Shown here: positions 15,308 through 34,961 of the stretch, in pieces | Layout: each line of letters starts with the position of its first letter | Numbering within the stretch: position 1 is the first letter of the stretch | NCBI RefSeq assembly: GCF_964212655.1 | Contig: NZ_OZ156465.1 | Span: forward strand, 992,001 to 1,056,000 | Direction of reading: 5' to 3' | Origin: Candidatus Thiodiazotropha sp. LNASS1 | Lineage (GTDB): Bacteria > Pseudomonadota > Gammaproteobacteria > Chromatiales > Chromatiaceae | Length of the DNA stretch: 64,000 nt | Notes under the pieces: generated by a model | What the model was told of the DNA's origin: nothing | Seen by the model: only the letters and a program-made list of their open reading frames with translations | The model's database searches: none | Translations under genes and position numbers: made by a program

Positions 15308-15728
15308 CAATCTGAAAAGTACTGGATTCACCTTGGTGGAATTGATGGTGGTTATACTCATTGTTGGTATTCTGGCGGCGATAGCCTTCCCCAGTTACGA
15401 TGAGTATGTCAAAAGGGCGCGTCGTGGTGACGGTACGGAAACACTCCTTGCCGCCGCCCAGAGCTTTGAGGTCTTTCGTGCGCGCACTGCAACTTATCCT
15501 AACGATATTGCTCTGGTGAACCTCAATGATGAAAGCCCCGATGGGTATTATGGCAACCTAACCGTTCTTGATCCAACTGTGGATTGCCCAATCGTCAGCT
15601 GTTATATTATCCAAATCCAGGCCCAGAATCAGCAGGCAAATGATGACATAACAGCCTTCCGCCTCAGCTCATCAGGTGTAGAAGAACGGTATGAAGATGG
15701 GGCTTGGCATACCAACTGGAGAGAGTAA
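15300..15728 (+). CDS. pilE: Type IV pilin PilE (PilE-like minor pilin)
   Basis: A 142-residue prepilin with leader [39 protein letters not shown], including Glu +5. Two cysteines (in [10 protein letters not shown]) probably form the disulfide loop. The ATG at 15300 follows a near-perfect Shine-Dalgarno AGGAGGTGA placed inside the end of pilY1. The position at the end of the fimT-pilV-W-X-Y1 operon corresponds to P. aeruginosa PilE, a minor pilin, so it may not be the major subunit. Confidence 0.92.
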
Positions 15729-17850: not shown

Positions 17851-18182
17851 GCTGCAAACACTCCCCGGATTCGTTATCAATAGATGACAGCTAGCCTAGT
17901 ATTCAAGTTTCAGTTTCACCTATCAAAAAGTAAATAATAAAAAATATGGACGATCACCCTCCGGTATCACCGGTTATATTGATTGTCCGCCAAGCCTCCT
18001 ACCTGCAATTTCTGTCAGAATTTTGTTCTTATTGCGTTCTTTTTATCTTTTTTTCTAGTACATACAGTTAGTTGTGTCATTTAATGAGCGTCAAGTTGTC
18101 AGTTGATTGTGTTGCTAAAGTTACACTGGCACAGGCCGTTATAGACTTCAGAAGCAAGTAATAATTTGCTTTTTAACGTGTT

Positions 18183-18275
18183 CGAAAAGGCAAACCTGCC
18201 GAAAGGCAGGGACGCAAAATCACAGTCTAAGGGTTGTTTCATTGCCTAAGACCGATGGATTACCGAAACCGTGAC
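18183..18275 (+). promoter_or_regulatory. Cyclic-di-GMP-I (GEMM-I) riboswitch
   Basis: The sequence carries the conserved GEMM-I core in order: GGCAAACC, a P2 hairpin TGCC-GAAA-GGCA with GNRA tetraloop, GGGACGCAAAA, a CTAAGG segment, then CCTAAG, ATGG and TTACCG that close the three-helix fold. In the family the aptamer binds cyclic di-GMP at the three-way junction, with the GAAA loop docking on a receptor in P3. It lies 106 bases upstream of the small secreted-protein gene at 18381, on the same strand. Confidence 0.88.
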
Positions 18276-18315
18276 TCACAACCGACTCCCTGCTGGTTGG
18301 CGTCATATATTCACA

Positions 18316-18373
18316 ACTGCACTCCCCTGCAGTACGCGTCTCGTCGATTCGAACTCCTATAACCGGATAGGAG
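18316..18373 (+). promoter_or_regulatory. Expression-platform hairpins; ribosome binding site sequestered
   Basis: Two hairpins lie between aptamer and gene. ACTGCA-CTCCCC-TGCAGT spans 18316-18333. CTCCTAT-AACCGG-ATAGGAG spans 18354-18373. The second buries AGGAG, the Shine-Dalgarno placed seven bases before the ATG at 18381, inside a 7-bp stem. No T-run follows, so control of translation is more likely than control of termination. The CTCCCC loop could compete for the same AGGAG. Confidence 0.6.
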
Positions 18374-18380
18374 AATTCTG

Positions 18381-18767
18381 ATGCGCGTAAGGGCCAAATC
18401 AACTTTAATCATGCATGGGCTGATGCTGATAATTTTCAGCTTCTCAATGAATTTAATGGCCAGTGACCCTTTCAATGAGTTGTCTGCCAATCACAGTAAT
18501 CGACAGCAATGGGTGTGCGATTACAGCCGGGCACACAATGACGTGTTGTATTTGCGCTGTGATGACCTGGCACATGTATTGAATGATTCGTTGATTGTGG
18601 AAGGCGAGAATCAGGAAAGTTCAACAAAATTTATCCCTATTTGGCGACGCCCTGACAATGAAAGCTCAGCAATCAAACTGGTAGAATCAGTATTATGTCA
18701 CCAAAAGTTCCAGTGTAGCGTGCAACTTAAATCGATGTTTTCACCTCGACTCGTTGTCAACCGATAG
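18381..18767 (+). CDS. Small secreted protein controlled by cyclic-di-GMP riboswitch
   Basis: A 128-residue protein with a signal peptide (about residues 1-27, ending LMAS). The mature part has four cysteines (in WVCDYS, YLRCDD, VLCHQKF and QCSVQL) that could form two disulfides. I do not recognise the family and see no enzyme motif. The riboswitch upstream implies that its amount follows cyclic di-GMP, the second messenger of surface life and biofilm, so a role in matrix, adhesion or pilus-related behaviour is plausible but unproven. Confidence 0.75.
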   Translation: MRVRAKSTLIMHGLMLIIFSFSMNLMASDPFNELSANHSNRQQWVCDYSRAHNDVLYLRCDDLAHVLNDSLIVEGENQESSTKFIPIWRRPDNESSAIKLVESVLCHQKFQCSVQLKSMFSPRLVVNR

Positions 18768-18862
18768 TGTTTTCAATCAGTTCGATCTGATGTGTGATTT
18801 GTAAAAGCTGCCATTATCATCAGTAACAGGTAAAACTGCTGTTGATAGTGTTGTACGGTCTC

Positions 18863-20020
18863 CTAATTATTTAGTTTATATGTGCCTATTTCTTCATATT
18901 CATTTTCACCCATAGGCATTAAAACAAGGAAATAGCCCTCTTCGAAAGGCTGGAAGGACAAAGTGCTTATATTTGATTCGTGGGTCACAATAACAAGGTT
19001 GCCATTGCCGGAGAATGACCCAATCTTGTCCTCTAATTGTGATATGTATAACTCTGCTTGATCCTCAGCAAGGTTCTCACCTGAAATTAAGTATTCCACA
19101 GATTCCGCCTGACCGAACGCAAAAGTCGCGGTTTCCTTTGCCAGGCAGTGCGGACTTGTCAGGACATGTTCTATCGGCACACCCCTCGATTTGAACTGTT
19201 TTCCTATTCTGATCGCTCGCGCCTTACCCTTTTCGGATATATTATCTTCGCTTTTGCAGGATGTGTCGCGAAGCAATGAACGTGTACTGTCTTCATTTGT
19301 CTCCATGGTTGGCGATCTTAGAACAATCACTAAGCCGCCTGCTTCTAATTTCCCCCACACTTGATAAAGCAGTCTGATATAACTGACGAGGCCGTCAACC
19401 TCGCTTTTAGTTAATATGTCTCGCCACGCCGGCATGAAACGCCCCTTTCCATCAAGGATACTTCTGGCAAGATCATCATTAGCAAGTTTGTCCGTCTTAT
19501 GTGGATTGGTGTGATCGATAGGCTTGATTCCAATGAGATTCGTCATGGTTCCATTTCCATCACCCTCCTTGCCGTGGCAGATCGAACAATATTTTCGGTA
19601 AACACGGAAGCCGAGTTCAGGGTCGCCGGTTAGAGTGTGACTCGAAGTACTGAGGAAACGTAGATAAGCAATCAATGCCTTGATCTGATCAGGACTGAAA
19701 ACATTTTTCCATTTGGGCATGTCTTCACTGATCTGGCCGTGGCCTGCGCTATCAGATACGGTATCTCGCGCTTCTCCTGTGATAATTTTCTGAAGTGCGC
19801 TGTCACTTCTGGAAAGAATGGCAGACGTCAGGTCTTCAGCCTTGATTTGCATCTTTTTCGCCAGAGGTCCGTTGCCTTTGCCATTGATACCATGACACAG
19901 CAGACAATGCGAAATGTATAGCTTTCTACCTTCAAAGGCGGGAGGAAGTGCGGCAGTAACGTCAGGGATTAATAGTATGAGTAGAGCGATTGATGCCACC
20001 GATTGGATCATGTGTTTCAT
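18863..20020 (-). CDS. Diheme cytochrome c fused to a histidine-phosphatase-like domain
   Basis: A 385-residue exported protein. Signal peptide 1-23. Two class I cytochrome c domains follow, with heme sites CLLCH (39-43) and CSICH (145-149) and likely axial Met ligands near 101 and 196. Residues 228-385 resemble a histidine phosphatase of the SixA/periplasmic type (VIVLRSPTMET, LTSPHCLAKETATFAF, VIVTHESNIS). The catalytic RHG of that family reads RSP here, so the nucleophilic His is missing although the second His (347) remains; phosphatase activity is doubtful. Divergent from the monoheme cytochrome at 20245, with a shared palindrome between. Confidence 0.8.
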   Translation of the reverse strand: MKHMIQSVASIALLILLIPDVTAALPPAFEGRKLYISHCLLCHGINGKGNGPLAKKMQIKAEDLTSAILSRSDSALQKIITGEARDTVSDSAGHGQISEDMPKWKNVFSPDQIKALIAYLRFLSTSSHTLTGDPELGFRVYRKYCSICHGKEGDGNGTMTNLIGIKPIDHTNPHKTDKLANDDLARSILDGKGRFMPAWRDILTKSEVDGLVSYIRLLYQVWGKLEAGGLVIVLRSPTMETNEDSTRSLLRDTSCKSEDNISEKGKARAIRIGKQFKSRGVPIEHVLTSPHCLAKETATFAFGQAESVEYLISGENLAEDQAELYISQLEDKIGSFSGNGNLVIVTHESNISTLSFQPFEEGYFLVLMPMGENEYEEIGTYKLNN

Positions 20021-20082
20021 GTATCTACCCTCTAATTACATATCATTAATAAATGGAATAATTTAAGAATTAATAAAGGCAA

Positions 20083-20102
20083 TCTTAAGGTTTCTTTAAG
20101 AA
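20083..20102. promoter_or_regulatory. Near-palindrome TCTTAAGGTTTCTTTAAGAA, candidate operator
   Basis: An inverted repeat (TCTTAA...TTAAGA) in the divergent region between the cytochrome-phosphatase gene (63 bases away) and the monoheme cytochrome gene (143 bases away). It matches in 18 of 20 bases the palindrome at 27307-27326 ahead of the multiheme operon. The shared spacing and location suggest a common regulator. Confidence 0.5.
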
Positions 20103-20244
20103 ACCATCGATAAATATATGGTGAATTCTCTTTTTTTGCTTGAAAGCTTGACCGCATGCAAGAGTCCCGATATTTTTTGTTATTCCAGAGCCATTTAATC
20201 CCGAATCAGCAGAATAGGTTTTCTTACAACAGGAGTCTGCATTT

Positions 20245-20574
20245 ATGTTGATCATGAAGTTGATTCCGGTAGTTGCGGTCATAATTTTGTTCCCGGTGTC
20301 AGTTGCCCAGGCGGATGGCGATCCTATCAGAGGTAAGTTGCTTGCTGAGACGGATTGCGCGGACTGCCACGGCGATGATGGTTTGGGTGATTACGACAGG
20401 CCTCCCATTGCCGGCATGAACCCTAAAGAACACATTAAAGAACTTATGAATTACAAGACGGGCAAGCGAAAGGATGAGAACGAGGACATGGATGTGGCTG
20501 ATCTCAGTGAACAGGATATGGCTGATGTCGCCGCCTACTATGCCTCGCTGCCACCGCCGCCTCAGAAGAAATAA
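20245..20574 (+). CDS. Monoheme class I cytochrome c
   Basis: A 109-residue periplasmic cytochrome. A signal peptide (1-23) precedes GDPIRGKLLAETDCADCHGDDGLG, with one CADCH heme site, and PPIAGMNPKEHIKELMNYKTGKR, which supplies the distal Met, as in half of a cytochrome c4/c553. AGGAG lies nine bases before the ATG at 20245. It converges on the multiheme operon at 20621 and may shuttle electrons between the inner membrane and the multiheme proteins. Confidence 0.88.
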   Translation: MLIMKLIPVVAVIILFPVSVAQADGDPIRGKLLAETDCADCHGDDGLGDYDRPPIAGMNPKEHIKELMNYKTGKRKDENEDMDVADLSEQDMADVAAYYASLPPPPQKK

Positions 20575-20620
20575 TTTTTTCAGTGTATCACTCCAAGAAT
20601 GCTGGAAAGAATTCTTGGTA

Positions 20621-22414
20621 TCAATAATCAAAACCATCGTGTACTTCCCCATGGCAGTTGAGCCAGCATGTGCCATTGTGCAGGCCATTGTCTATCCAGG
20701 TGGGTTCTGCAAAGATACCAGCGCCTGTAATCTCACGAACTTGCCCAGCCACATTTGAAAAGGTGAGAAAATTGATCAGGTGCTGGTTCGATGCTGAGCC
20801 ATGAGGATCATGGCAGTTGATGCAGGCAAGGTTTTCACCGATCACGTGCTTGTCGTGTGGAAAGGACTGGTCAGTGTATAAATTACCTGAATCATGGCAT
20901 TTAAAGCAGAGACTGTTTGAGAGCGATGTGGCATTCAATGGGTCAAAATCATAAGCCTGTGACAGGATACCCTCATGTGTAGATCCATGAGGGCCCGATG
21001 GACCAGAGCCTCCACCGGCAGGAGACGCATTGCTGCTGTGACAATCACTGCAGTAGATTTGTCCACTGATCGTACTCAGTGGAATATCGTTGCGAAGACT
21101 GGGCACCTCGTTGTTGTTACCGGGATTATTGAGTTCGATAGGATGATAGGAAACCAGAGCGGGATTTCCTGAATTCACTTTGTCTCGGATATTATAGACA
21201 CCGTCTTGACGCACCATATCGTAGCTGTTGGCCGTCGAACAACGCTGATTGTCGCATGCGCTCTTTCCAGGTACACCATGACACTTGAAGCAGACTTCGT
21301 ATTCGTAATCCACTTCAGGTTTTACACTCCCATTGATATCGATCCCTGTCACACCCACCATGCTGCCATTGACGAAGGGTGCAGTTGAGTGGTTCGTGCT
21401 CATTGGACTGATCGGATCGAATGAGATCATAGGGGGCGAACTGAACATGGCATGTGGATTATGGCAGTCTTCGCACTCAACATGCAGTGTCATGGTAAGC
21501 GGATTCTCCTCGCGTGTGTTGTCATGGCCAATGCTGGGTGTCTGCTCCACCGGATGGTGATAGAATTTTTGTTGTTCGGCCTGTATATCGGTCTGTGCCA
21601 CCGTTCCGTTATGGCAGAGGTAACAGGTATTCTCTTCCTGCTCCTTGATAAGTCGCTCCGGTGTCGATGCATTGTGGGGTGTATGACAATTCATGCAGGC
21701 ATTCTCCTGCACCGTCAGTCCCACCCATGCGGGCTTCCGATCTGACCATGGATTTGTACCCTGCGGTGTGGCGGTAGAGGTGGCATGAGAGCTGCCCGTC
21801 CAATCCCAACCGGTGCCTGTCGGAATATGACAGGTAGTGCACAGTTCACCGTTCAATGTTGATTTGTGAAGAAAGGGCGGATGCATATCTTCATGCGCAT
21901 CGTGACACGAGGCGCAGTGAAGTTCGTTGTTTCTCAGCGGCAGATCAACGTTGTTGGGATGGATCAGATCCGGGTCGGTCGGCAACAGATTTTGATTGTA
22001 TAGAATCGATACCGGATGATCATCTGAAAGGTCTGTGCCCACAAGTGCACGTCCTGTCACAAAAGTACTGCCGAGGTCATTGGTTACCCCGGGATTGATC
22101 ATGTTCCCCAGGGCAATGGTGCCGTCATGGCAGGAGAGGCAAAGCACTGATGAGGCGCTCATGGTGCCTGCTTCCGCATCCTTGGTGCTGCTTTGGTAGT
22201 CAATATATCCACCACCTGAATGTCTGTTCCATAACGGTGAATCGGGAGCCGCAGCATGAGGTGTATGGCAGAATATGCAAATTCGATCTTCCGTTTGACT
22301 CTTGACCAGTCCAGGTCCTGTTATCGAAAGATTATGAACAGTATCAGCAACACCAGCTAAAACAGTACTGGAGACAATCATAAGACATATGAAGGGTAGA
22401 GAGATCCTATGCAC
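20621..22414 (-). CDS. Dodecaheme c-type cytochrome
   Basis: A 597-residue exported multiheme cytochrome. Signal peptide about 1-20. There are eleven CXXCH sites (CIFCH, CLSCH, CASCH, CTTCH, CMNCH, CYLCH, CEDCH, CFKCH, CSDCH, CFKCH, CINCH) plus one CXXXCH (CWLNCH) near the C-terminus. The first four hemes, with CHTPH, LWNR, CLSCHDGT and GTDLSDDHP, repeat the layout of the tetraheme protein at 26539, so it looks like that module extended by eight hemes. Start codon GTG, one base after the NHL gene. Last gene of the operon; probably periplasmic or extracellular. Confidence 0.9.
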   Translation of the reverse strand: MHRISLPFICLMIVSSTVLAGVADTVHNLSITGPGLVKSQTEDRICIFCHTPHAAAPDSPLWNRHSGGGYIDYQSSTKDAEAGTMSASSVLCLSCHDGTIALGNMINPGVTNDLGSTFVTGRALVGTDLSDDHPVSILYNQNLLPTDPDLIHPNNVDLPLRNNELHCASCHDAHEDMHPPFLHKSTLNGELCTTCHIPTGTGWDWTGSSHATSTATPQGTNPWSDRKPAWVGLTVQENACMNCHTPHNASTPERLIKEQEENTCYLCHNGTVAQTDIQAEQQKFYHHPVEQTPSIGHDNTREENPLTMTLHVECEDCHNPHAMFSSPPMISFDPISPMSTNHSTAPFVNGSMVGVTGIDINGSVKPEVDYEYEVCFKCHGVPGKSACDNQRCSTANSYDMVRQDGVYNIRDKVNSGNPALVSYHPIELNNPGNNNEVPSLRNDIPLSTISGQIYCSDCHSSNASPAGGGSGPSGPHGSTHEGILSQAYDFDPLNATSLSNSLCFKCHDSGNLYTDQSFPHDKHVIGENLACINCHDPHGSASNQHLINFLTFSNVAGQVREITGAGIFAEPTWIDNGLHNGTCWLNCHGEVHDGFDY

Positions 22415-22415
22415 G

Positions 22416-23423
22416 TCAGTTACCCACCTTCAGGTATTGAAAAACCTGGATGCGTTGATTGTAAGAATCAGCCACGAATATCTTGTCATCCCAGATCGCA
22501 AGACCTGATGGCATACGAAAATTACCAGGGGCATCACCAATGCCGCCGAACTCAAGCAGGAATGCCCCACTCTGGTCGAAAATCTGGATGCGGTTTGCCA
22601 ATGCATCGGCGATATAGATATGCCCGTCGGAGTCAAGGGCAAGTCCCTTTGACTGAGTGAAATAACCTGAAGCATTGCCTTGTTTGCCAAAGGTTTTCAG
22701 ATGACGGCCTTTGTTATCGAAAGACTGAATCCTGAAATTCATGGTGTCATTGACATACAACCGCTGGTCGAAAAATGCCAGGTGACTTGGAAAATTAAAC
22801 TGTAAGTTTTGCTCCCCGCGCTCACCGATCTTATATAAAAGATCTCCGTCAGAATCGAAAACCAATACCTCATGGGCCAGAGTATCCGCAATATAGAGTC
22901 GCTGTAATTTTGGATCGAAAGCCAGGCTGGTAGGACGCAGGAAACCTTTTAACATGTGTAATGTCTTCAGGCCGGAATTGAGGATGAATACTTTGTTCAA
23001 TTTGGAATCGGCGATAAACAGCCTGTTTTTCGCCAGTGAAACCCCGATCGGCGACTCTAATCGATGAATTCCGGCATGATCGATTTTACGATAGGATTTG
23101 CTGTCCAATTCGAACAGATGCACAACTGCTGCATCAGGATCCGCTACCGCTATCCTGTTTTCATTGACGGCAATTGTATATGGACGTGACAGGCTGTGTT
23201 CTTCACTGCCGGTGAGCAGATCGAGAAACCTACGGAAGAAATTTTTTTCAAATCCCAGGTCCTCAGCGTTTTTGAATGCGGATATGAATTTAATTCTTGA
23301 TATTTCAGGTGTTGCCGGCCAAACCAAATGCGGTGTATCACTGGTTTCGTTGAATGTCACCGGTCCGGTCGATGAACAGGCGCCAAGCAACAGTAGAAGC
23401 AGCATGCCCAAATATTTGGTCAC
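22416..23423 (-). CDS. NHL-repeat beta-propeller lipoprotein
   Basis: A 335-residue protein with a lipoprotein signal peptide (LLLLLLGAC, lipid on about Cys16) followed by LVWPATPEISRIKFI and about six NHL repeats (for example IYIADALANRIQIFDQSG), forming a six-bladed beta-propeller. Such proteins often serve as binding platforms and accompany multiheme cytochromes. Start codon is GTG at 23423 with GGAGG five bases upstream, overlapping the barrel gene's stop. Paralogous to the protein at 27665. Likely outer-membrane anchored. Confidence 0.87.
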   Translation of the reverse strand: MTKYLGMLLLLLLGACSSTGPVTFNETSDTPHLVWPATPEISRIKFISAFKNAEDLGFEKNFFRRFLDLLTGSEEHSLSRPYTIAVNENRIAVADPDAAVVHLFELDSKSYRKIDHAGIHRLESPIGVSLAKNRLFIADSKLNKVFILNSGLKTLHMLKGFLRPTSLAFDPKLQRLYIADTLAHEVLVFDSDGDLLYKIGERGEQNLQFNFPSHLAFFDQRLYVNDTMNFRIQSFDNKGRHLKTFGKQGNASGYFTQSKGLALDSDGHIYIADALANRIQIFDQSGAFLLEFGGIGDAPGNFRMPSGLAIWDDKIFVADSYNQRIQVFQYLKVGN

Positions 23424-25435
23424 ATGATCCTCCGTCTAAAGGTAAACATCAGTCTGTCGTCGATGGTCTCTGTCAACCCGTTGTCCTGTGATCTGTCAAC
23501 GGTACGACGATCGTGATGGTAGTTTAATTCAAGATCGACTTTACGATATCGCCAGCGAGCCCAAATACCGGCTGAGATAAACTCATCATCCAATCGACCG
23601 CCTGTGATGACACTACCCTCGTCATGTCTCTTCCAAGCGCTGATGGTCGGTCGGATTGTCAGGCTAGGACGAGGCTGCCAATTGGCTGTAAGGTCGATTC
23701 GGTAGAGATCCGTATCCAAGGATTCCTGTTCGGTGAACGATTGCGTTGCGTTAAGGTTCCATAAAATTCCCCTGGATCGGGTGTTTTCGAAAGTTGTCCA
23801 GGAGAAAAGTTGCCTATATGTGTAACTCGTTGATTCGAATCCGCCGGACAGTGTGAAGCGTCGTTCGGCGCCAACAAGGGCATCGATACCTGCCAGTTTA
23901 AAATGGAATTCCAGATCCGTGAGGGTATTGCGTGTGCTCTGTAGAAAACTCTCACTGGCACCTGAAATGAGCTTGTCATCAGACTTGCTGTCGGAATGGG
24001 AAAAACGTACCCAATCATAGTCGATTGAGAAATTATAGTTTGTAAAGGTGGTGGAAAACTCCTGTGATGGTAATTGCTGCGCATTGTAACTGACCAGGAT
24101 AGTGTCACCGGTATCGATTCTGACACCCGGTATCACTTGGATTTGTGTGAGGTCTCCTGACAGACTCAGCACCGTGTAATCCATCCCCTCATCGTAAACA
24201 ATGGTGCCACTGCTGTCGGTGACGATGATGCTGCCGGTAATTATGAAGCGCCGGTCAAGAATGACCGCACCTGTCAAAGGAACGACGTGACTCTCATCAA
24301 TGACATCCACAAGCCCAAGATTTGAAATACGGTCGGTCTCTTGATAGGTGGCTCCTAGCCCGGCCCTGACATTGGCGCCCAGGAGATTGCTCTTGTTGTA
24401 TTGCGTTTCAAGCCCAAAACGCCATCTGTCTTCATCCACGTTATCAGAGTCTCGAGTATTAATATTCACATGGGCTGTGGTATTTAGATTGTTGTACAAT
24501 CTATGGTGCAATTCGAAATCACCTCCATGCTCCTCATTTTCGATAGTCTGAGTAATGGATTGATAGTGATAGGAGGTGCGACTGTAAAGATTGTCCAGGT
24601 GCTGTATCCGGGCTGTTTCATCCACTGTCAGACGCTCATTGGCGTTGAACCCGGTACGGTCGTAATAGTTGATGAGTGACTGCAACTGGCTATTTCGTCC
24701 CCAATGTAGATTATGCGATATGTTGGCTCTGTCCAGCTCATAATCCTGATCACGCGTGATGATTCTGTCATCCAAGCTGGCATGCTCCAGATGCACGCTT
24801 AATTTACTGCTGCGCCCTTTCAGGATCAAACTCTCGAGGATCTCATCACGCTCCGTCACCGAACTGTTGAGACTGGAGCGGAACTCTTCATCCAGTGACC
24901 TTTCCTCGTATGTCAGACTCATCGGGAATGCCGGATTTTTCCATTGAAGCGTGGCATTCTTAGTATCAATCACCGTATCGTAGCGGCTGCCCAGAGAGCC
25001 TGTGTTGAGGTTTGAGCTTCTTTGTGCGGATAAATTAACGCCCACTGGTCCGGGCGTGCCCCGTAGCAGGTTGGTCTGAAAAAGGTAATTTAGAAGTTCC
25101 CCATCATTTTCCTGCCGGGTAACACTGGAGTCGAACTCACTCCGGGTGTATACAGGCTCGATATCAATCAGAAACCAGGCAATCTCCGGATCCAGTACAT
25201 AACCTATCTGACCCACTCTAAAACCGGCCTCCCACTCAGTTTCACGGGAGTCGGTACCATTTCTCCTATTGGTGCCGTCAAACTTTACAATGGCCTCGAG
25301 TTCAGTGGGATAAAGAACAATATTCTCCCCAAATTGAGCATTGAGGCTACCGGTCCAAAGCATGACGAGTATAAAAAGTAACCATGAATAAACCGGTGGA
25401 TCTGCGATTCTTGGCATGGTCTCTACCGGAACCAT
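23420..25435 (-). CDS. Outer-membrane beta-barrel protein of the cytochrome cluster
   Basis: A 671-residue exported protein (signal peptide about 10-35, ending LNA/QFGEN) made of alternating amphipathic strands with many aromatic residues, as in large barrels of about 20 or more strands. No TonB box or plug domain is visible. One insertion near 400-460 (GSIIVTDSSGTIVYDEGMDYTVLS) looks like a small domain. Lying between periplasmic and lipoprotein cytochromes, it is the candidate porin of a porin-cytochrome conduit. ATG at 25435 follows the previous stop by 5 bases; 25417 is an alternative. Confidence 0.75.
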   Translation of the reverse strand: MVPVETMPRIADPPVYSWLLFILVMLWTGSLNAQFGENIVLYPTELEAIVKFDGTNRRNGTDSRETEWEAGFRVGQIGYVLDPEIAWFLIDIEPVYTRSEFDSSVTRQENDGELLNYLFQTNLLRGTPGPVGVNLSAQRSSNLNTGSLGSRYDTVIDTKNATLQWKNPAFPMSLTYEERSLDEEFRSSLNSSVTERDEILESLILKGRSSKLSVHLEHASLDDRIITRDQDYELDRANISHNLHWGRNSQLQSLINYYDRTGFNANERLTVDETARIQHLDNLYSRTSYHYQSITQTIENEEHGGDFELHHRLYNNLNTTAHVNINTRDSDNVDEDRWRFGLETQYNKSNLLGANVRAGLGATYQETDRISNLGLVDVIDESHVVPLTGAVILDRRFIITGSIIVTDSSGTIVYDEGMDYTVLSLSGDLTQIQVIPGVRIDTGDTILVSYNAQQLPSQEFSTTFTNYNFSIDYDWVRFSHSDSKSDDKLISGASESFLQSTRNTLTDLEFHFKLAGIDALVGAERRFTLSGGFESTSYTYRQLFSWTTFENTRSRGILWNLNATQSFTEQESLDTDLYRIDLTANWQPRPSLTIRPTISAWKRHDEGSVITGGRLDDEFISAGIWARWRYRKVDLELNYHHDRRTVDRSQDNGLTETIDDRLMFTFRRRIM

Positions 25436-25440
25436 GCTGA

Positions 25441-25779
25441 TTACTTCTCTTTGATTAAATGACAACGGTTACAATTTGCGAAACCGTCATCAAAGGCCTC
25501 ATTGCCATTATGACAAGTGGAGCAGACTTTACCTTCTTTCATCAGATCCTTATTGATCGGTGTGGTACCCGTCTTCATTTCAAAGATCTTGTTATGGCAG
25601 GCATCGCATCGATAATTGATGCGGTGTATCCAGTGGGGAAAAATGGATGGCGGAAATGATTTTAATTTTTCCGGGTCCCCTCCCTCGCGCTCATACTGAA
25701 TATCCCCCGGTGCAGCAAAAACAGAAGCATATGTTGCTATCAAAAACAGGAACACCAACTGTGATGGGCATCTTCGCAT
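25441..25779 (-). CDS. Triheme c7-type cytochrome
   Basis: A 112-residue periplasmic cytochrome. Signal peptide 1-22, then FPHWIHRINYRCDACH, FEMKTGTTPINKDLMKEGKVCSTCH and CNRCH: three CXXCH sites and distal histidines, the pattern of small cytochromes c7/c3 that carry electrons through the periplasm in Geobacter-like systems. Second to last three-heme unit before the barrel gene; the genes are five bases apart. Confidence 0.88.
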   Translation of the reverse strand: MRRCPSQLVFLFLIATYASVFAAPGDIQYEREGGDPEKLKSFPPSIFPHWIHRINYRCDACHNKIFEMKTGTTPINKDLMKEGKVCSTCHNGNEAFDDGFANCNRCHLIKEK

Positions 25780-25832
25780 ACACTTACCTTCTGCTTTTTT
25801 TACATCGCTGTGTCGTCACAGCAGATGTATTA

Positions 25833-26519
25833 TCATTCTTCTTCTTCGTCGTCTTCATCGCTGTTTAAATGGCAGCGATCGCATGCTTTGAGAGAGAAGG
25901 AAACTTTCTTTTTACCGTGGCAGGCACCGCAGGAGACGCCTTTTTTCTTCATCTCCTTCATCGTGGCCGGATTTCTTTTGTAGGGATAAAGGGATGGATT
26001 GTGGCAATTCTTGCACCCCAGCCATTGGGTATGAGCAGAGTGAGGAAAGAATGCGTCGTCCTCGGGCTCCTCACCTTTGATAACAAAGTCCCACTGGAAT
26101 GCTGTGGCCCACAGCGCGCGAGGATCCTCACCGGGCCGCGGTCGAATCAATCCCTGTTCCAGTGCGGCTGACCAATCAATATTTTTTTTATAGTCTTTAG
26201 GCAGTAACTTCTTTACCCGATCCCACTCCATGACCGACTCAATCTCCGGTCTTGGCGCCTTATCATCGGGTAGATTGAACAGCATACCTTTCGATCCGGC
26301 TGCATGATTTTGTTGAAGTTCCTTGGATTGGGCTTCGATCAGCGCCGCCTGTTTTTTTAATTCCTGTTCCGCCAGCTCTTTAGCTGTCGGAGGCTGGATA
26401 TCGAAAAACAGCTGCTTGGTCTTTGTGCTGCAGGCAGCGACGATCAGTACCAGTGAAAGGACCAGGGCAATTTTCATTACCCTGGTTCCCAGTCTTAGTT
26501 TTTCCGCCATTGCGCTCAT
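25833..26519 (-). CDS. Triheme cytochrome lipoprotein
   Basis: A 228-residue lipoprotein (lipobox LIVAAC, lipidated at Cys30 of the longest form) with a helical linker (about 45-75) and a C-terminal triheme c7-like domain: FFPHSAHTQWLGCKNCH, GVSCGACHG and CDRCH. The acidic tail ends in a run of Asp and Glu. A shorter start at 26477 (MKIALVLSLVLIVAAC) is also plausible. Anchored to a membrane, it could pass electrons between the periplasmic pool and the barrel. Begins 19 bases after the tetraheme gene. Confidence 0.85.
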   Translation of the reverse strand: MSAMAEKLRLGTRVMKIALVLSLVLIVAACSTKTKQLFFDIQPPTAKELAEQELKKQAALIEAQSKELQQNHAAGSKGMLFNLPDDKAPRPEIESVMEWDRVKKLLPKDYKKNIDWSAALEQGLIRPRPGEDPRALWATAFQWDFVIKGEEPEDDAFFPHSAHTQWLGCKNCHNPSLYPYKRNPATMKEMKKKGVSCGACHGKKKVSFSLKACDRCHLNSDEDDEEEE

Positions 26520-26538
26520 ACGGCGAAACCACTGTGAG

Positions 26539-27165
26539 CTACTTAACGTGACAAGCCAGACACAGGGCGCTTCCAGCGTTACTCATGCGCAGAAAAGGCT
26601 CATTTGTATTGTCATGTACGGAGTGGCAGGTACCGCACTCTACTTGATCACCACCCGTACCGAACAGTTGCAGTCCGTTCACTTGTGAATTCACAGGTGC
26701 AACAAAATCGACGTCCTGTGCGGCATTGTAGGTCAGGGAGATCGGATGGTCATTACTGAGGTCAGTACCAAGGCTGTCGCCCAGACTGAAAATTCCCTGC
26801 CCGGCGTTAACCCCACTTGGAAAGTTGAGAAGTTGATCCGCAGCCACAGTTCCATCATGACAACTCAGACATGCCAGCGAGACGCCCGCTGGCGAGCCGG
26901 CAATGGTCATATCCAGTGAAGGACTGCTGTACATCGTGTACGTTGCCTGCGTGTCCTCATGGTTCCATAGTGGGGTTGTTGTGTTAGTAGTACTGGCGTC
27001 ATGAGGAGTATGGCAGTAAGCGCAGATCTCGGTATTGCCGGCATTTGTCAACAACGTCGTATTACTGGTCAGGTCATGAGATGTGCCGGTGATTTCTGCA
27101 AATGCCGCAGTGCCATAAAGGCCAAGTGATACAAGTAAGGAAGCTAGGATAGCTATTTTTTTCAT
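26539..27165 (-). CDS. OmcE-like tetraheme cytochrome, candidate nanowire subunit
   Basis: A 208-residue exported cytochrome with four hemes: CAYCH (48-52), CLSCH (99-103), CGTCH (177-181) and CLACH (202-206). Signal peptide 1-23. The run CHTPH, PLWNHE, CLSCHDGT, GTDLSNDHPI, CGTCHSVHD, FLRMSN, LCLACH matches what I recall of the tetraheme OmcE family of Geobacter, whose members polymerise into extracellular heme wires. The ATG at 27165 has GGAGG six bases upstream. First gene of the operon; the long leader carries repeats and a palindrome. Filament formation is inference. Confidence 0.82.
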   Translation of the reverse strand: MKKIAILASLLVSLGLYGTAAFAEITGTSHDLTSNTTLLTNAGNTEICAYCHTPHDASTTNTTTPLWNHEDTQATYTMYSSPSLDMTIAGSPAGVSLACLSCHDGTVAADQLLNFPSGVNAGQGIFSLGDSLGTDLSNDHPISLTYNAAQDVDFVAPVNSQVNGLQLFGTGGDQVECGTCHSVHDNTNEPFLRMSNAGSALCLACHVK

Positions 27166-27232
27166 TCCGATCCTCCAGGTACTGATAGGATGATGCACCA
27201 GCTTCTTGTCAGTGCTGTAAGCCGATTTTTTA

Positions 27233-27278
27233 TACTTCTACTGCGTGGATACTTCTACTGCTTGAGTACTTCTACTGC
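27233..27278 (-). repeat. Three direct repeats ahead of the tetraheme cytochrome
   Basis: TACTTCTACTGC occurs at 27233, 27250 and 27267, an exact 17-base period; on the gene strand the unit reads GCAGTAGAAGTA. The array ends beside TATAAAAAAT (minus strand, about 27234-27225), a possible -10 box, so the repeats could be activator sites or part of the leader. Confidence 0.6.
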
Positions 27279-27303
27279 TTTTTGGAGATTATTATTTTTA
27301 TAG

Positions 27304-27328
27304 AATTCTTAAGGTTTGCTTAAGAATT
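27304..27328. promoter_or_regulatory. Perfect 10-bp inverted repeat, candidate operator
   Basis: AATTCTTAAG (27304-27313) and CTTAAGAATT (27319-27328) flank the spacer GTTTG. It is about 140 bases upstream of the tetraheme cytochrome start. The core (27307-27326) is nearly the same as the near-palindrome at 20083-20102 in the same redox island. Confidence 0.55.
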
Positions 27329-27664
27329 GGGACAATATTCCCATAACATCCCAAGGAATATTAAGACAGCTATGTGTAATCGTCAATGACTGTTGGGAAC
27401 TATTTGCTTAATTGTTTTTAATAGTCATTAAATTCCCAGTTTTTATTAACAAACTTTTAGAATTAACTGACGTTAGTAGTAGGAAAATAGATTGGTGAGC
27501 GATTTACTCACTCACCGTTTAACTTTGATGATTGATGTATGTCACAGGATGATAAGCCTTGGCCATCAGAATATTTGAATAGCTCCACTTGAGTCGATGT
27601 TATCAGTGAGACTGAAAGTTCCCCAAGTGCAGTGGCGTGATATCTCTAATAGTAGATTCACCCA

Positions 27665-28762
27665 TCAGGGTAGAGTCGATTCTTCAAGATACTCAAACAT
27701 CTGTATCCGATGATTTAGCTGGTCAGCTATATATATGCGGTTGTTTTGGTCAACATGTGCGCCCGCAGGCAGGTAAAATCCTCCTGGGCCGGTACCGGAT
27801 TTGCCAAGCGACAGCATCAACTGTCCTTTCTGATTAAATATCTGTACGTTATTGAATGCGGCATCCACAGTATAAATGTGTCCTTCACGGTCGATGCCAA
27901 TCCCTTTAAGCCGGCTGAAATGACCACGACCATCACCGAGTTTGCCGAAGCTGCTGATGTGGGTACCTTTTTCATCAAGGATCTGAACACGAAAGTTCAT
28001 AGTATCGGCGACATAGAGACGGCCGTCCTGGTCAATTGCAATATTCGTCGGGAAGTTGAAGTTTCCATGATCGGCGCCACGTTTTCCAATAGTGAAGTCC
28101 ACCCCACCTTCCTGGTTGAACACCACAATCTGGTGTTTCTTCGAATCGACAACGTAAAGCTGCTGTGTTTTATCGTTAAATACCAGCCCTACCGGAGATA
28201 TTAATATCTCGCTACCACCAAGTGCGTTCAGGTAATTCCCTTCACTGTCGTAGACTACCACGCGGTGGTCAATGACATCACTGACATAGACGTTACCTTG
28301 TGCATCGCTAGTCACACCGGTTGGTTTCTTTAGCGCTCCAGGTCCTTCGATGCCCCAATAAGTCATGCCTTTCCTTTCCAGATCAAATACCACCAGACCG
28401 GAGATACCTGTATCGGCAACGTAGACCCGTCCCTTTGAATCGCTGTGTACCCCATAGGGTTTAGTCAGGGCAAGACGTTCTTCATCCTTTTTCCCGAGCA
28501 ACCAATCACGCAGGCTCTGCTTTTGCTTCCCGATAATGGATTCAGTGGATTTCAGGCTGCCAAGGTAGCGGATTCGAGGTTTTGCCGGAGGAGCCGGCCA
28601 TACGAAATTTTCTGCCGTGAGATTTTCAGTAGTTGCGGATGGTGCATGAGAGGCGCACCCTGAAATCACGATGATTATGGCCGTGAGGCCAATTCTCAAC
28701 GCCGGTATAAGACTTGTTAGATGCAAGCGACACGGTGAATACTCTGTCAGCTTAAGGTTCAC
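27665..28762 (-). CDS. Second NHL-repeat beta-propeller lipoprotein
   Basis: A 365-residue lipoprotein (lipobox VISGC) followed by FVWPAPPAKPRIRYLGSLKS and about six NHL repeats, closely parallel to the protein at 22416. The GTG at 28762 is chosen because GGGAGG lies six bases upstream and it gives a normal signal peptide; the frame stays open to 28876 but the extra residues look non-coding. It precedes the multiheme operon on the same strand but is separated by 0.5 kb with its own control region. Confidence 0.85.
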   Translation of the reverse strand: MNLKLTEYSPCRLHLTSLIPALRIGLTAIIIVISGCASHAPSATTENLTAENFVWPAPPAKPRIRYLGSLKSTESIIGKQKQSLRDWLLGKKDEERLALTKPYGVHSDSKGRVYVADTGISGLVVFDLERKGMTYWGIEGPGALKKPTGVTSDAQGNVYVSDVIDHRVVVYDSEGNYLNALGGSEILISPVGLVFNDKTQQLYVVDSKKHQIVVFNQEGGVDFTIGKRGADHGNFNFPTNIAIDQDGRLYVADTMNFRVQILDEKGTHISSFGKLGDGRGHFSRLKGIGIDREGHIYTVDAAFNNVQIFNQKGQLMLSLGKSGTGPGGFYLPAGAHVDQNNRIYIADQLNHRIQMFEYLEESTLP

Positions 28763-29048
28763 ACTTATCCTCCCAATCTTCAGATGCCAACTGTTATTTT
28801 GTATTTTTAGTACTGACCCAGTACGCTTTAATGAATGGTAGCTCAACTCGAGTGAGTTAGAACTCCAGTATGACATTTATCCAATGTGAATAGAATACCA
28901 GTTACCTATAGTATGAAAAGACACTGTAACGTGTAATGACCAATTTTCTGATTGGATAGTTTTAATACATTATTCATTTTTAAAATAGTCCGCCATGGTA
29001 CATGGACCGAATCCAGGAATCGGTATTCAATAACCTAAAGAGAAAACC

Positions 29049-29768
29049 ATGAATATTTTTAAGCTAATAACAATAGGGTTCACTATTATTTTCGCTGTTT
29101 CAACCGCTGTCGCAGATGAAGAAGGATCCGTATCGGGTACAGTAGCGGAGGTTTTCGATGTCGGTAATTACACCTATATGCAGCTCAGTGAGCAGGGAAC
29201 TTGGATCGCAACCAGCCATTTGTCGGTGGCTGTGGGTGATAAAGTTGAATATAGAGGCGGCATTGAGATGAGGGATTTTTACAGTAAGGCGCTGGACAGA
29301 AAATTCGATTCTGTCATCTTTGTACAAGCAGCTAAGCGGGTGGGTGAAAGTGTCAAAAGCAGCCAACATCAGGTGCTGAAAGGAGAAGGCCACGGAAATG
29401 AAAACAGACAAACTCAAATATTGACCACAGTAGAGGTACCCGCACCAGTACCTGGAGAGATTCCTCAACTGGCTGACGGAAAGACGATCGCCGATATAAT
29501 GGCAGACGCGACTCAGCTGAATGAGCAATCGGTCAGCCTGCGGGCAAGAGTTATAAAGATAAGTCCAAACATTATGGGCAAGAACTGGATTACCCTGCAG
29601 GACGGAACCGGCACACCACCCAATGACAAGCTGATTGCGACATCGACAGAACTGGTTTCGCCGGGTGAGCTTGTCATTGCCAATGGCGTGATTCGATATA
29701 ATGTTGATATCGGTTCAGGATACACATATAAGGTCTTACTTGAACAAACGAAATTCGCGCCAAAGTAA
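29049..29768 (+). CDS. Secreted protein with two OB-fold-like domains
   Basis: A 239-residue exported protein (signal peptide 1-22). Two related halves (about 25-95, GSVSGTVAEVFDVGNYTYMQ, and 150-239, VSLRARVIKISPNIMGKNWI) have the pattern of OB-fold/NrfJ-like domains, often found beside cytochrome c genes in metal- and sulfur-cycling bacteria. A linker rich in Pro and Val joins them. Function is unknown; a role in the maturation or binding of secreted redox proteins is only suggested by the neighbourhood. Confidence 0.7.
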   Translation: MNIFKLITIGFTIIFAVSTAVADEEGSVSGTVAEVFDVGNYTYMQLSEQGTWIATSHLSVAVGDKVEYRGGIEMRDFYSKALDRKFDSVIFVQAAKRVGESVKSSQHQVLKGEGHGNENRQTQILTTVEVPAPVPGEIPQLADGKTIADIMADATQLNEQSVSLRARVIKISPNIMGKNWITLQDGTGTPPNDKLIATSTELVSPGELVIANGVIRYNVDIGSGYTYKVLLEQTKFAPK

Positions 29769-30075: not shown

Positions 30076-31683
30076 ATGACAGAAAACCTCGACCTCCTGA
30101 CGAGAGATGACTTTCAAGCCTTGGCTCAATCTTCACGGGCACTGACAAAAGAGCTTTCACTTGAAATATTGCTCAACACCATTCTGGACACAGCTGGAAA
30201 ACTAACAAATTCACCCGAAACAAGTATTATCCTGCGAAACGAACGTCAGCCGACACTCTATTTTGCCGCGGCAACCGGCGAAGAGGCGGAGTGGGTACTG
30301 AGTTCATTTGGACTCCACTCGGACCAGCAGGTACCGATCGACGGAAGCAAAGCAGGTGAAGTGTACAAGTCCGGCATTTCGATGGTTGAGAACATTGTCA
30401 AGGATCATTTCGGCGGGGTGGACGATGAGACGAACAAGATCACCAAGAGTATGGTATGCGTGCCGTTGGTGGTCGGCGACAGTCGTCTGGGAGTGATGCA
30501 GGTCTTAAATAAAATCGATGGCGACTATAGCGAGCGGGATCGCATTATTCTGGAATATTTTGCCGATCAAGCCAGTGTCGCTATCCGTAACGCACGGTTG
30601 GTCGAAAGTCTTCTTGCCCATAGCGGTCTTTACGGGTCATCACGCCAAACCGACAAGTTGATCGCGCGAATGAATGAACTCGAGCAAGAGGCTCATTCAG
30701 AAACCTTATCGGTGCTGTTTGCCGACATGCGAGGTTTTACCCAACTTTGCCAATCATTACTCGATCCTGGAATTGTACAAGAGCGACTGAGTGAGTTTAT
30801 TACGATTCTCAGTCATGCCGTACTCGATCACGACGGGATAGTAAATAAGGTTCTGGGTGATGGAGTAATGGCACTGTTTCAGGGGAAAGATTGCAGTGAG
30901 AGGGCCGTGAAGTGTTCATTTTACATGGTGCGGGAATTTGAGCTGATGAAAGCGCGTTGGAATGAAGAAAGCAATCAGCAGCTCGATTTTCTTGATCTGG
31001 GAGTGGGCATAGTTACCGATCAGGTGATATTGGGGGGGATTGGCAGTGGAGACATGCGGGACTATACAGCAATCGGTACTGCAGTGAATCTTAGTGCCGC
31101 ATTTGAAAGCAATGCCCGCAATGGGAAACGAATCTTATGTGACCAAGTCACCTACCGCAATGCGAAAGAGATCATTGTAGCGGCCGATGATGCAGTAGAT
31201 TTCCTGCTACAAAAACCCGGCCAGGATGTCGGCGTTAAGTACAAGTGCTATAACATCCGCGAACTGGATTCGGACAAGAGTGTTTCTGTATTTCTCAGCC
31301 ACAGCCATGAAGATAGTCATTTTATTGAGAAAAAGCTTCTCGAACCACTGAAGAAAAGGGGAATCCGTACCTGGTATTCTACTGCCGATATTCCCAAGGG
31401 AGCACTTTGGACTGCCGAAATTCGTAAGGCGATTTCCGAATCAAACTGGATGGCGGTTGTTGTCTCCAGGAATTCCGCTCAGTCGAAATGGGTCCGGCGC
31501 GAAATTGATCTCGGCGTCGCTTCCGGACACCTGGACAATCGTATCATCCCAATCATAATTGACGACACATCTCCCGGCGACGTTAACGACTATCTTGCCG
31601 CGATGCAGGCCATTGACCTTTCGAGTAGCCCGGATGCGGAAAAGGTACTTGCCGACCGTTTTTCCAAACTCGACCCTACATGA
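30076..31683 (+). CDS. GAF - class III nucleotide cyclase - TIR protein
   Basis: A 535-residue cytoplasmic protein. Residues ~15-180 are a GAF sensor. Residues ~210-395 are a class III cyclase with metal ligands Asp217 (FADMRGFT) and Asp262 (VNKVLGDGVMALF) and the substrate motif YTAIGTAVNLSAAFES. Residues ~402-535 are a TIR_2-like domain (VSVFLSHSHED, IRTWYSTADIPKG, SKWVRREIDLG) with a candidate catalytic Glu476. Thr335 fits class IIIb, but the position usually held by the transition-state Arg is Ala342, so cyclase activity is uncertain. A ribosome binding site GGAAGAGAT is upstream. Monocistronic. It could be signalling or an abortive-infection-type defence. Confidence 0.85.
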   Translation: MTENLDLLTRDDFQALAQSSRALTKELSLEILLNTILDTAGKLTNSPETSIILRNERQPTLYFAAATGEEAEWVLSSFGLHSDQQVPIDGSKAGEVYKSGISMVENIVKDHFGGVDDETNKITKSMVCVPLVVGDSRLGVMQVLNKIDGDYSERDRIILEYFADQASVAIRNARLVESLLAHSGLYGSSRQTDKLIARMNELEQEAHSETLSVLFADMRGFTQLCQSLLDPGIVQERLSEFITILSHAVLDHDGIVNKVLGDGVMALFQGKDCSERAVKCSFYMVREFELMKARWNEESNQQLDFLDLGVGIVTDQVILGGIGSGDMRDYTAIGTAVNLSAAFESNARNGKRILCDQVTYRNAKEIIVAADDAVDFLLQKPGQDVGVKYKCYNIRELDSDKSVSVFLSHSHEDSHFIEKKLLEPLKKRGIRTWYSTADIPKGALWTAEIRKAISESNWMAVVVSRNSAQSKWVRREIDLGVASGHLDNRIIPIIIDDTSPGDVNDYLAAMQAIDLSSSPDAEKVLADRFSKLDPT

Positions 31684-31729
31684 TGTACAATTGTTTTATC
31701 CCTGTGACGGAACCTCTAAATTTTCCTTA

Positions 31730-31994
31730 GGGCCTGTTAACACTAATCCAATCGGCTCTGTTGTGTCTGAAAATGCGCCAATCAAGGCGCGAGGAGTGAG
31801 GTTTGGTGATTCCAAATGAGTGACGAGCAACGCCGAGTGGCGCATTTTCAGGCACAACCCGAAGGGCTGGGGCTGTTTTTCCACCCAGCTGCGTTATCAT
31901 TCGCTCATTTAGCACGGCTAAACCTCGCTCATTCTGCCTTGCTGGGTAAAAAAACAGCTCCAGCAGAGTCGATTGGATTAGTGTTAACAGGCCC
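31730..31994 (+). mobile_element. MITE-like element, copy 1
   Basis: A 265-bp element with terminal inverted repeats starting GGGCCTGTTAACACTAATCC and continuing about 30 bases, flanked by TA on both sides as expected for an IS630/mariner-type TA target. No transposase. Inside are two large imperfect hairpins: one pairs GTTGTGTCTGAAAATG with CATTTTCAGGCACAAC, the other pairs GGCTGTTTTTCCACCCAGC with GCTGGGTAAAAAAACAGC. Short open frames in it are by-products of this symmetry. It lies between the cyclase-TIR gene and the DUF1820 gene. Confidence 0.8.
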
Positions 31995-32083
31995 TAGTAC
32001 CATGCCGCTACAGGGAAACAGTGGAATTCGAGTATGCGGGTTCAGGTAATACAACGATTCAGTCCTGTAATGTAGAGTCGATC

Positions 32084-33710: not shown

Positions 33711-34835
33711 TCAGCGTTTACCATCCGACAGGGTGATTCCATCCAGTTCATCGATCAGCGAGTCACTGGTATGGGTGGCGCCCAGTTTGATCATCAAGCG
33801 TACATCATTGGCGGAATCGGCATGGGCCAAGGCATTCTCATAGCTGATGACACCCTCTTCATAGAGCTGAAAGAGATGCTGATCAAAGGTAATCATGCCG
33901 TGTTCCGTTGAACGCTTCATCAGCTCTTTGAGCTTGTGGATTTCGCCCTTGCGAATCAGTTCTGCGGCCAATGGGGTATTCAACATCACCTCGACGGCAG
34001 CCCGCCGACCATTACCGTCCACACGCGGGATCAGTTGCTGAGCCACGATTGCCTTCAGATTCAGGGAGAGATCCATGAAGATCTGATCTCTGGCATCCTC
34101 CGGGAAGAAGTGAATGATACGATCAAGCGCCTGATTGGCGTTGTTGGCATGCAAGGTCGACAGGCAGAGATGGCCGGTCTCGGCAAAGGCTATCGCGTGT
34201 TCCATGGTCTTACGGGTACGTATCTCACCGATCAGGATCACATCGGGCGCCTGGCGCAGGGTGTTCTTCAGCGCAATCTCATAGGACTCGGTATCTATGC
34301 CTACTTCGCGCTGGGTAATGATGCACTTGTCGTGATCATGCATATACTCGATGGGGTCCTCGATACTGACGATATGGCCCTCGCCCCTGGTATTCCGATA
34401 GCCGATCATGGCAGCCAGAGAGGTCGACTTGCCGGTACCGGTGGCGCCCACGAAGATCACCAGGCCACGCTTCACCATGGAGAGATCCTGCAGAATGGCG
34501 GGCAGGTAGAGTGACTCCAGGCTGGGTATCTTGGTTTCGATGCGACGTAACACCATGCCCACGGTATCGCGCTGATAAAAGCTGCTGACGCGGAAACGCC
34601 CCAGGCTTTTCGCACTGATGGCGAAATTGCACTCTCTGGTTTCGTCGAACTCCTTCTGTTGCGCATCGGTCATGATGCTGTAGACCATCTCCTTGGTCTC
34701 TCGGGGTGTCAGAGGGGTCTTGTTGATCGGATGGATCTTTCCATCCACCTTGATGGAGGGTTCCCGCCCGGCGGTTATGAACAGATCGGACGCCTTGTTT
34801 TTGACGACCACGGACAGGAGTGCGTTCAAATCCAT
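33711..34835 (-). CDS. pilU: Type IV pilus retraction ATPase PilU
   Basis: A 374-residue hexameric ATPase that assists PilT in pilus retraction. Walker A GATGTGKSTSLAAM, Asp-box/Walker B VILIGEIRTRKTMEHA, and His-box CLSTLHANNANQALDRI are intact. The ATG at 34835 (MDLNALLSVVVKNKASDLFITAG) is the family start, with AGAGGA about eight bases upstream. It follows pilT after about 126 bases on the same strand, the usual pilT-pilU order. Confidence 0.95.
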   Translation of the reverse strand: MDLNALLSVVVKNKASDLFITAGREPSIKVDGKIHPINKTPLTPRETKEMVYSIMTDAQQKEFDETRECNFAISAKSLGRFRVSSFYQRDTVGMVLRRIETKIPSLESLYLPAILQDLSMVKRGLVIFVGATGTGKSTSLAAMIGYRNTRGEGHIVSIEDPIEYMHDHDKCIITQREVGIDTESYEIALKNTLRQAPDVILIGEIRTRKTMEHAIAFAETGHLCLSTLHANNANQALDRIIHFFPEDARDQIFMDLSLNLKAIVAQQLIPRVDGNGRRAAVEVMLNTPLAAELIRKGEIHKLKELMKRSTEHGMITFDQHLFQLYEEGVISYENALAHADSANDVRLMIKLGATHTSDSLIDELDGITLSDGKR

Positions 34836-34961
34836 AATCTTATCCTCTTCAGTCACATACCGACCTGTAGCAGCAAACAAATAAAGCTATCCATGGCATC
34901 AGGCAGCAACCGCTTTCAGGGCCAAACGGGCGCCATCATACACCCGGAAGATAACTATAGT

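Follow-up and report, generated by a model that had tools for sequence, protein, structure and literature searches.

In the OmcE filament of Geobacter sulfurreducens, one heme takes a histidine ligand from the adjoining subunit (PMC9473688). OmcE homologues across bacteria have already been published, and a 2025 review lists the anchoring of nanowires and their electrical joining to the cell among the open questions (PMC12307469). Here we describe a cytochrome gene cluster in a stretch of 64,000 nucleotides (hereafter, the window) from the sulfur-oxidising bacterium 'Candidatus Thiodiazotropha' sp. LNASS1, in which an OmcE-type tetraheme cytochrome, a fused OmcE-octaheme cytochrome and a predicted outer-membrane barrel are encoded side by side. 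This gene set probably builds a conducting filament that is wired through the outer membrane.

The window (G000:C1:992001-1056000, contig NZ_OZ156465.1) belongs to a one-contig genome of 4.75 Mb. Members of 'Candidatus Thiodiazotropha' are symbionts of lucinid clams and have also been found on seagrass roots (PMC13167027). The named best matches of the window are to this genus, in agreement with the gammaproteobacterial host proposed in a preliminary description made from the DNA letters alone.

Results

A tetraheme cytochrome of the OmcE type

Judged by sequence, the tetraheme protein is a match for the OmcE-type family in each feature that we examined, as the preliminary description had suspected. 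OmcE (Protein Data Bank (PDB) entry 7tfs) aligns with it at E 2.8e-34 across the full length (residues 18-219), and a second entry, the 16-chain 'putative multiheme cytochrome c' 9yuq, aligns with the whole protein at E 6.5e-30; a profile search of the PDB with the tetraheme alignment returned only these two again. The four CXXCH motifs and four more histidines are invariant among 19 aligned proteins including OmcE, and all eight histidine columns are intact in 16 of 16 rows of an alignment that includes the N-termini of 12-heme proteins. Reading the N-termini of the tetraheme and 12-heme proteins by eye, we saw no lipobox. From the homology and the histidines we infer that the tetraheme protein would polymerise into an extracellular filament.

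The 12-heme cytochrome carries an OmcE-like domain

What the preliminary description had missed is that the 12-heme cytochrome itself starts with an OmcE-like domain of ~200 residues. Residues 6-196 match 7tfs at E 5.2e-24, and at E 9.6e-49 in a profile search. Its single CX3CH motif is conserved as well, with C583 near-invariant and C587 invariant in a 63-sequence alignment. We placed 47 such N-terminal domains in a tree with 131 rows. Of these, 46 form one cluster with modest support (96/60), and the 47th (locus L062) is a long branch outside it; two free tetraheme proteins (L033_t2 and L037_t2) sit within the cluster. Both of these come from Acidobacteriota loci, where the next gene after the tetraheme gene encodes a separate seven-heme protein that resembles the C-terminal part of the 12-heme protein and starts with its own signal-peptide-like sequence. 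Because the two halves occur there as two genes, they appear to work together.

The 12-heme protein was found in 13 of 369 genomes of the class at E<=1e-60 and is therefore uncommon in the class. Its AlphaFold2 model has a mean predicted local distance difference test (pLDDT) score of 66.9, is low over most of residues 1-130 and was left unused as evidence. On the strength of the homology, we regard the protein as a candidate adaptor between filament and membrane.

A predicted barrel accompanies the cytochromes across phyla

The model of the large heme-free protein (pLDDT 88.9) shows 26-28 strands by our own count from the strand list, which bears out the outer-membrane barrel predicted earlier, and its best match in a second structural comparison (VIA) is MtrB of the Mtr conduit. 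Sequence searches with the protein returned no Pfam match and a single weak NCBIfam match below cut-off, to a phage tail tube in the inserted domain (E 3.7e-4), which was taken as chance; the sole match of a PDB profile search with the barrel alignment, at E 0.97, was disregarded. These searches gave no tie by sequence to any known conduit barrel.

To define gene linkage, contigs were scanned with an OmcE-led alignment and scored with profiles, and the 80 loci considered are the best of at least 567 confirmed matches. We prefer a strict count, in which the barrel family is called at E<=1e-20 and a fused 12-heme protein has exactly 11 CXXCH motifs. On this count a separate tetraheme gene is present at 73 of the 80 OmcE-type loci, an NHL protein at 78, the barrel family at 45, the fused 12-heme protein at 52 and all four at 42. 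Where the barrel occurs, it is accompanied by NHL at 45/45 loci, by the fused 12-heme protein at 44/45 and by a tetraheme gene at 43/45. With a looser count (barrel at E<=1e-3; 12-heme protein being any open reading frame (ORF) that has 11 or more CXXCH as well as the two cytochrome matches), the barrel is present at 49 of the 80 loci, 48 of these 49 have a '12-heme' protein, and all four components occur at 45. Since a tetraheme-type sequence, possibly as the N-terminus of a 12-heme protein, was the search key, only the linkage of barrel, NHL and eight-heme part counts as independent evidence. Other propellers may also be picked up by the NHL profile, which is loose.

By titles, from which the labels were typed, the loci with all four components fall under 11 phylum-level labels: Planctomycetota, Desulfobacterota, Pseudomonadota, Bacteroidota, Verrucomicrobiota, Nitrospirota, Calditrichota, Chlorobiota, Gemmatimonadota, KSB1 and Ignavibacteriota. 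At 36 of 49 loci (looser criteria) the barrel has a small multiheme cytochrome with 5, 6, 9 or 3+3 hemes immediately upstream, the window's own having three hemes with three more in the lipoprotein. The barrel is thus tied to multiheme cytochromes in other genomes; the preliminary description had named a substrate-specific porin without such a tie as a refutation.

Kinship between barrels was gauged with HHalign against the barrel alignment, with LptD and four TonB receptors of the same genome (E 0.01-0.26) and a TonB group profile (0.025) as controls. The barrels of L062, L068, L071 and L072 reached E 2e-11 to 3e-14, and those of L032, L033, L037, L096 and L097 9e-11 to 3e-7. The large ORFs of Geobacter-type loci scored 5.4e-10 as a group of nine and 0.0006-0.14 singly; because the single-sequence values hardly beat the controls, we do not claim kinship for them. 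The four sulfur bacterial loci L062, L068, L071 and L072 show another layout, with NHL, tetraheme and ~600-residue barrel-like genes and a gene for a 364-379-residue protein followed by eight- and seven-heme cytochromes. In L071, the one examined, the 364-379-residue protein is a pyrroloquinoline quinone (PQQ)-type propeller by Pfam.

Distribution in the genus and loss as one block

The barrel is present in 12 of 21 genus genomes, the window's own included, and in none of 35 other relatives. Among 11 further genus loci, nine show the complete gene order tetraheme, c7, c7, barrel, NHL, 12-heme, for which a search in related genomes had been proposed; the remaining two (L117, L121) agree until their contigs end. 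Such agreement goes beyond chance. The diheme cytochrome adjoins the cluster at 10 of these 11 loci, the eleventh (L121) being too short to tell.

No tetraheme match was found in the same-species genome G401, where one contig fuses window position 18033 to 28770 with 18 bases in between. What is absent there as one block comprises the riboswitch, the gene for the 128-residue protein, the two cytochromes with one and two hemes, and the core as far as the beginning of NHL lipoprotein B. The protein encoded at 29049-29768, outside the missing block, is closely matched in all 12 genomes that have the barrel and also in G401. Since this usual neighbour of the cluster remains in G401, loss there fits better than insertion of the unit into the LNASS1 genome, a possibility that the retained neighbour weakens. 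At window 31727-32000 lies a repeat of ~270 bases with partly self-complementary ends, of which G401 has dozens of nearly identical copies, many of them where contigs end; one copy breaks up the sequence to the right of the empty site.

In the genus, the unit is accompanied by a riboswitch and a secreted-looking protein

The left limit of the unit lies at ~18033, further out than first described, which adds the diheme cytochrome, a 128-residue protein and a cyclic dimeric guanosine monophosphate (c-di-GMP) riboswitch. The aptamer ends 113 bases before the start of the gene for the 128-residue protein, and a scan of 10 further genus loci (L121 lay outside the scan) detected it at nine. Of 22 genus genomes, 12 encode the protein, and these are exactly the barrel-bearing ones; it is missing from the other 10, namely nine of the 21 genomes above and G401. 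As the genus genomes are related, such co-occurrence counts are not independent trials. In the genome of L117 its gene lies on a different contig. Rfam detected no riboswitch in L117, in the second copy described below (L006), in the junction contig of G401 (L132), or in L019, L021, L022, L026, L027, L030, L031, L048, L058 and L071.

GEMM-I riboswitches control electron-transfer genes in Geobacter, and we take the G before the C in GGCAAA to favour c-di-GMP over cyclic GMP-AMP (cGAMP) as ligand. Control of the cytochrome cluster by this riboswitch was considered and is unsupported: the aptamer lies on the opposite strand and reads into the gene for the 128-residue protein, converging on the cytochromes.

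A diverged second copy

The same genome contains a diverged second unit at C1:3.68-3.70 Mb, with genes for a tetraheme protein (279 residues), a parvulin prolyl isomerase (PF00639), a 593-residue barrel-like protein, c7 and triheme proteins, two heme-free proteins, an NHL protein and a 798-residue protein with 11 CXXCH motifs and an OmcE-like N-terminus. Its tetraheme protein is not close to that of the window in the tree, and its barrel matches the barrel alignment at E 0.004 alone and 1.6e-17 as a group of six. Two other genomes of the genus, G006 and G017, have eight and five OmcE-like matches, and no copy of the window's barrel was found in them; the genus may thus hold further nanowire-type loci.

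Gene content and neighbourhood of the locus

The features of the locus are collected in Table 1. Our reading of motifs and ORFs agrees with the preliminary description on six close-packed minus-strand genes with the heme counts given there, and on a monoheme cytochrome and a second NHL lipoprotein at their flanks. Neighbouring genes of the six-gene core overlap by 4 bases at the closest and lie 53 bases apart at the widest; the longer ORF start of the barrel would produce a 25-base overlap with the c7 gene.

Table 1. Features of the cytochrome locus, in window coordinates
Feature	Position	Strand	Properties
c-di-GMP-I (GEMM-I) riboswitch aptamer	18179-18267	+	RF01051, 72.1 bits, cut-off 35
Secreted-looking protein after riboswitch	18381-18767	+	128 residues
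Diheme cytochrome c	18863-20020	-	PF13442 E 4.4e-24; C-terminal region weakly like histidine phosphatases (NCBIfam, below cut-off)
Monoheme cytochrome c	20245-20574	+	109 residues; PF00034 E 2.7e-9; at some genus loci, not all
12-heme cytochrome: OmcE-like domain (~residues 1-200) and eight-heme part	20621-22414	-	597 residues; 11 CXXCH and one CX3CH; Paired_CXXCH_1
NHL beta-propeller lipoprotein A	22416-23423	-	PF01436 E 3.1e-27; lipobox-like LGAC
Predicted outer-membrane beta-barrel, heme-free	23420-25435	-	671 residues (ORF start 25465); conserved inserted beta domain at ~residues 375-453
c7-type triheme cytochrome	25441-25779	-	112 residues; 3 CXXCH; PF14522 (Cytochrome_C7) and TIGR04257 'nanowire_3heme'
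Triheme c7-type lipoprotein	25833-26519	-	3 CXXCH; lipobox-like VAAC; heme-free N-terminal stretch; PF14522 and TIGR04257 at residues 153-217
OmcE-type tetraheme cytochrome	26539-27165	-	208 residues; 4 CXXCH; signal peptide-like start; Paired_CXXCH_1
NHL beta-propeller lipoprotein B	27665-28762	-	PF01436 E 7.1e-31; longer ORF starts at 28876
Neighbour protein	29049-29768	+	239 residues; signal-peptide-like start; without Pfam or NCBIfam match

Type IV pilus-type genes flank the cluster on both sides (window 12506-15728 and 33711-35996) and encode a pilin-like protein, two ATPases of the PilT/PilU family and a VWA-domain protein that is presumably PilY1-like. Pilin is reported to play a part in the export of OmcS and OmcZ in Geobacter (PMC12307469). 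Also near the cluster, at window 30076-31683, is a gene for a protein with GAF, nucleotide cyclase and TIR domains.

Discussion

Homology, the barrel model and the conserved linkage together make it likely that the unit conducts electrons across the outer membrane into a terminal cytochrome filament of the OmcE type. The second copy, with its prolyl isomerase as in the osc operon (PMC13194489), also speaks for this reading. Periplasmic carriers, namely the c7 protein and the flanking mono- and diheme cytochromes, would supply the triheme proteins, which would sit at the barrel or within it. At the outer face, the eight-heme part of the 12-heme protein would accept the electrons, and its OmcE-like domain would offer the first subunit-like surface on which the tetraheme protein stacks, each stacked subunit giving a histidine to the next one. 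The NHL lipoproteins may act as assembly or shaping factors.

Several findings speak against this scheme. Neither the barrel family nor the fused protein occurs at any of the five Geobacter-labelled loci, and the same-species genome G401 does without the unit. Foldseek places MtrB fourth for the barrel, after an S-layer barrel and the PapC usher, and PF11854 (MtrB/PioB) is unmatched in the barrel and in the whole genome. The filling of the barrel would have to rest on three-heme proteins only (c7 and the triheme lipoprotein), with fewer hemes than MtrA. The model of the 12-heme protein is too poor to judge and gave no Foldseek match at E<=0.001.

One may ask whether the barrel is chiefly an usher-like pore for secretion or assembly of the tetraheme filament, which electrons would reach otherwise. 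Such a role has reportedly been proposed for OscEFG, and we hold it to be a credible but less probable reading, since MtrB is the best VIA match of the barrel and a small multiheme cytochrome precedes it at 36 of 49 loci, as in electron conduits. The tetraheme and 12-heme proteins could also be monomeric outer-surface cytochromes of a plain porin-cytochrome conduit, without any filament: the triheme and barrel genes do look like conduit clusters, and sequence alone cannot reveal filament formation. The presence of all eight OmcE histidines, including the one that is owed by the neighbouring subunit (PMC9473688), makes this improbable. That the system serves no extracellular electron transfer at all, and instead pairs an uptake porin with a multiheme oxidoreductase of the periplasm, seems very improbable; the 12-heme protein weakly resembles the DmsE, NrfB and NrfH families (NCBIfam, below cut-off), but the closest solved relatives are OmcE-type proteins and the barrel accompanies cytochromes across phyla.

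Such conduits are reversible in principle, and the unit could take up electrons from an external source such as Fe(II), minerals or partner cells. Lucinid symbionts are reported to have orthologues of Cyc2, a porin-cytochrome (PMC12442345), in keeping with uptake. We nevertheless think inward flow rather unlikely and prefer outward flow, because the authors of PMC13137333 argue that lucinid sediments are rich in donor and poor in acceptor. For the proposed conduit and filament, the most likely function would then be an electron sink for sulfide oxidation under shortage of oxygen and nitrate.

A bolder proposal, which we advance tentatively and with less than even confidence, is that OmcE-type nanowires have their socket in the fused OmcE-octaheme cytochrome. 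The N-terminal domain of this protein would be a permanent end subunit and its eight-heme part would link the filament to the barrel conduit, as parts of an ancient, portable 'wire plus socket' module that spread over at least 11 phylum-level groups. Relatives of clam symbionts would be among them, with the module tied there to c-di-GMP signalling. A cytochrome that is in part a filament subunit and is encoded beside a barrel from Planctomycetota to Gammaproteobacteria offers a concrete candidate for the joint between nanowire and cell, one that can be tested with few proteins. The locus further extends nanowire-type systems to relatives of clam symbionts.

The preliminary description did not recognise the locus as a described cluster. 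This may hold for the exact gene set; related ideas have been published, in the osc operon of OmcS, the OetABI conduits and the Verrucomicrobia porin-cytochrome clusters. In the open-licence literature searched we did not find the fused OmcE-octaheme protein, the cross-phylum gene order or the system in Thiodiazotropha, and an earlier description is possible; likewise, a limited literature search returned no report of nanowires or multiheme conduits in Thiodiazotropha. What is new here is the fused cytochrome and its linkage to the barrel, the association with the riboswitch and the 128-residue protein in the genus, the absence of the unit as one block, and the second copy.

Comparison with known systems

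Among the closest known systems is the Geobacter sulfurreducens OmcE filament (7tfs), with which the tetraheme protein shares full-length homology and all eight histidines. Geobacter-type omcE loci resemble the window in the NHL lipoprotein that adjoins the tetraheme gene and in a heme-free ORF of 738-806 residues nearby, whose single-sequence similarity to the window's barrel is not significant. They differ in having eight-heme and, mostly, nine- to ten-heme cytochromes in place of the c7 proteins and the fused protein.

The osc operon, the companion of omcS, also combines a nanowire gene with beta-propeller and channel-type partners (PMC13194489), a likeness by kind of protein; the filament protein of the window is of the OmcE type instead. 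The second copy comes closer, with prolyl isomerase, channel and propeller proteins beside the nanowire gene as in that operon (PMC13194489), whereas no prolyl isomerase was found among the window genes read at 18.4-29.8 kb. With the Mtr and Pcc/Oet conduits the unit shares a large barrel beside multiheme cytochromes and the VIA match to MtrB, but its barrel is without PF11854, an outer cytochrome lipoprotein was not seen and the candidates for the lumen have three hemes only. In Verrucomicrobia, published clusters similarly have a porin that adjoins multiheme cytochromes, with periplasmic partners that carry eight hemes, unlike those of the window (PMC5615132); the window's barrel family is present at 5 of 6 Verrucomicrobiota loci (looser criteria).

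As a whole, the unit would combine the workings of a nanowire companion cluster with those of a porin-cytochrome conduit. We nevertheless assign it to neither class, because its barrel is not MtrB-like in sequence, an outer lipoprotein of the cytochrome kind was not seen and the window copy is without a prolyl isomerase.

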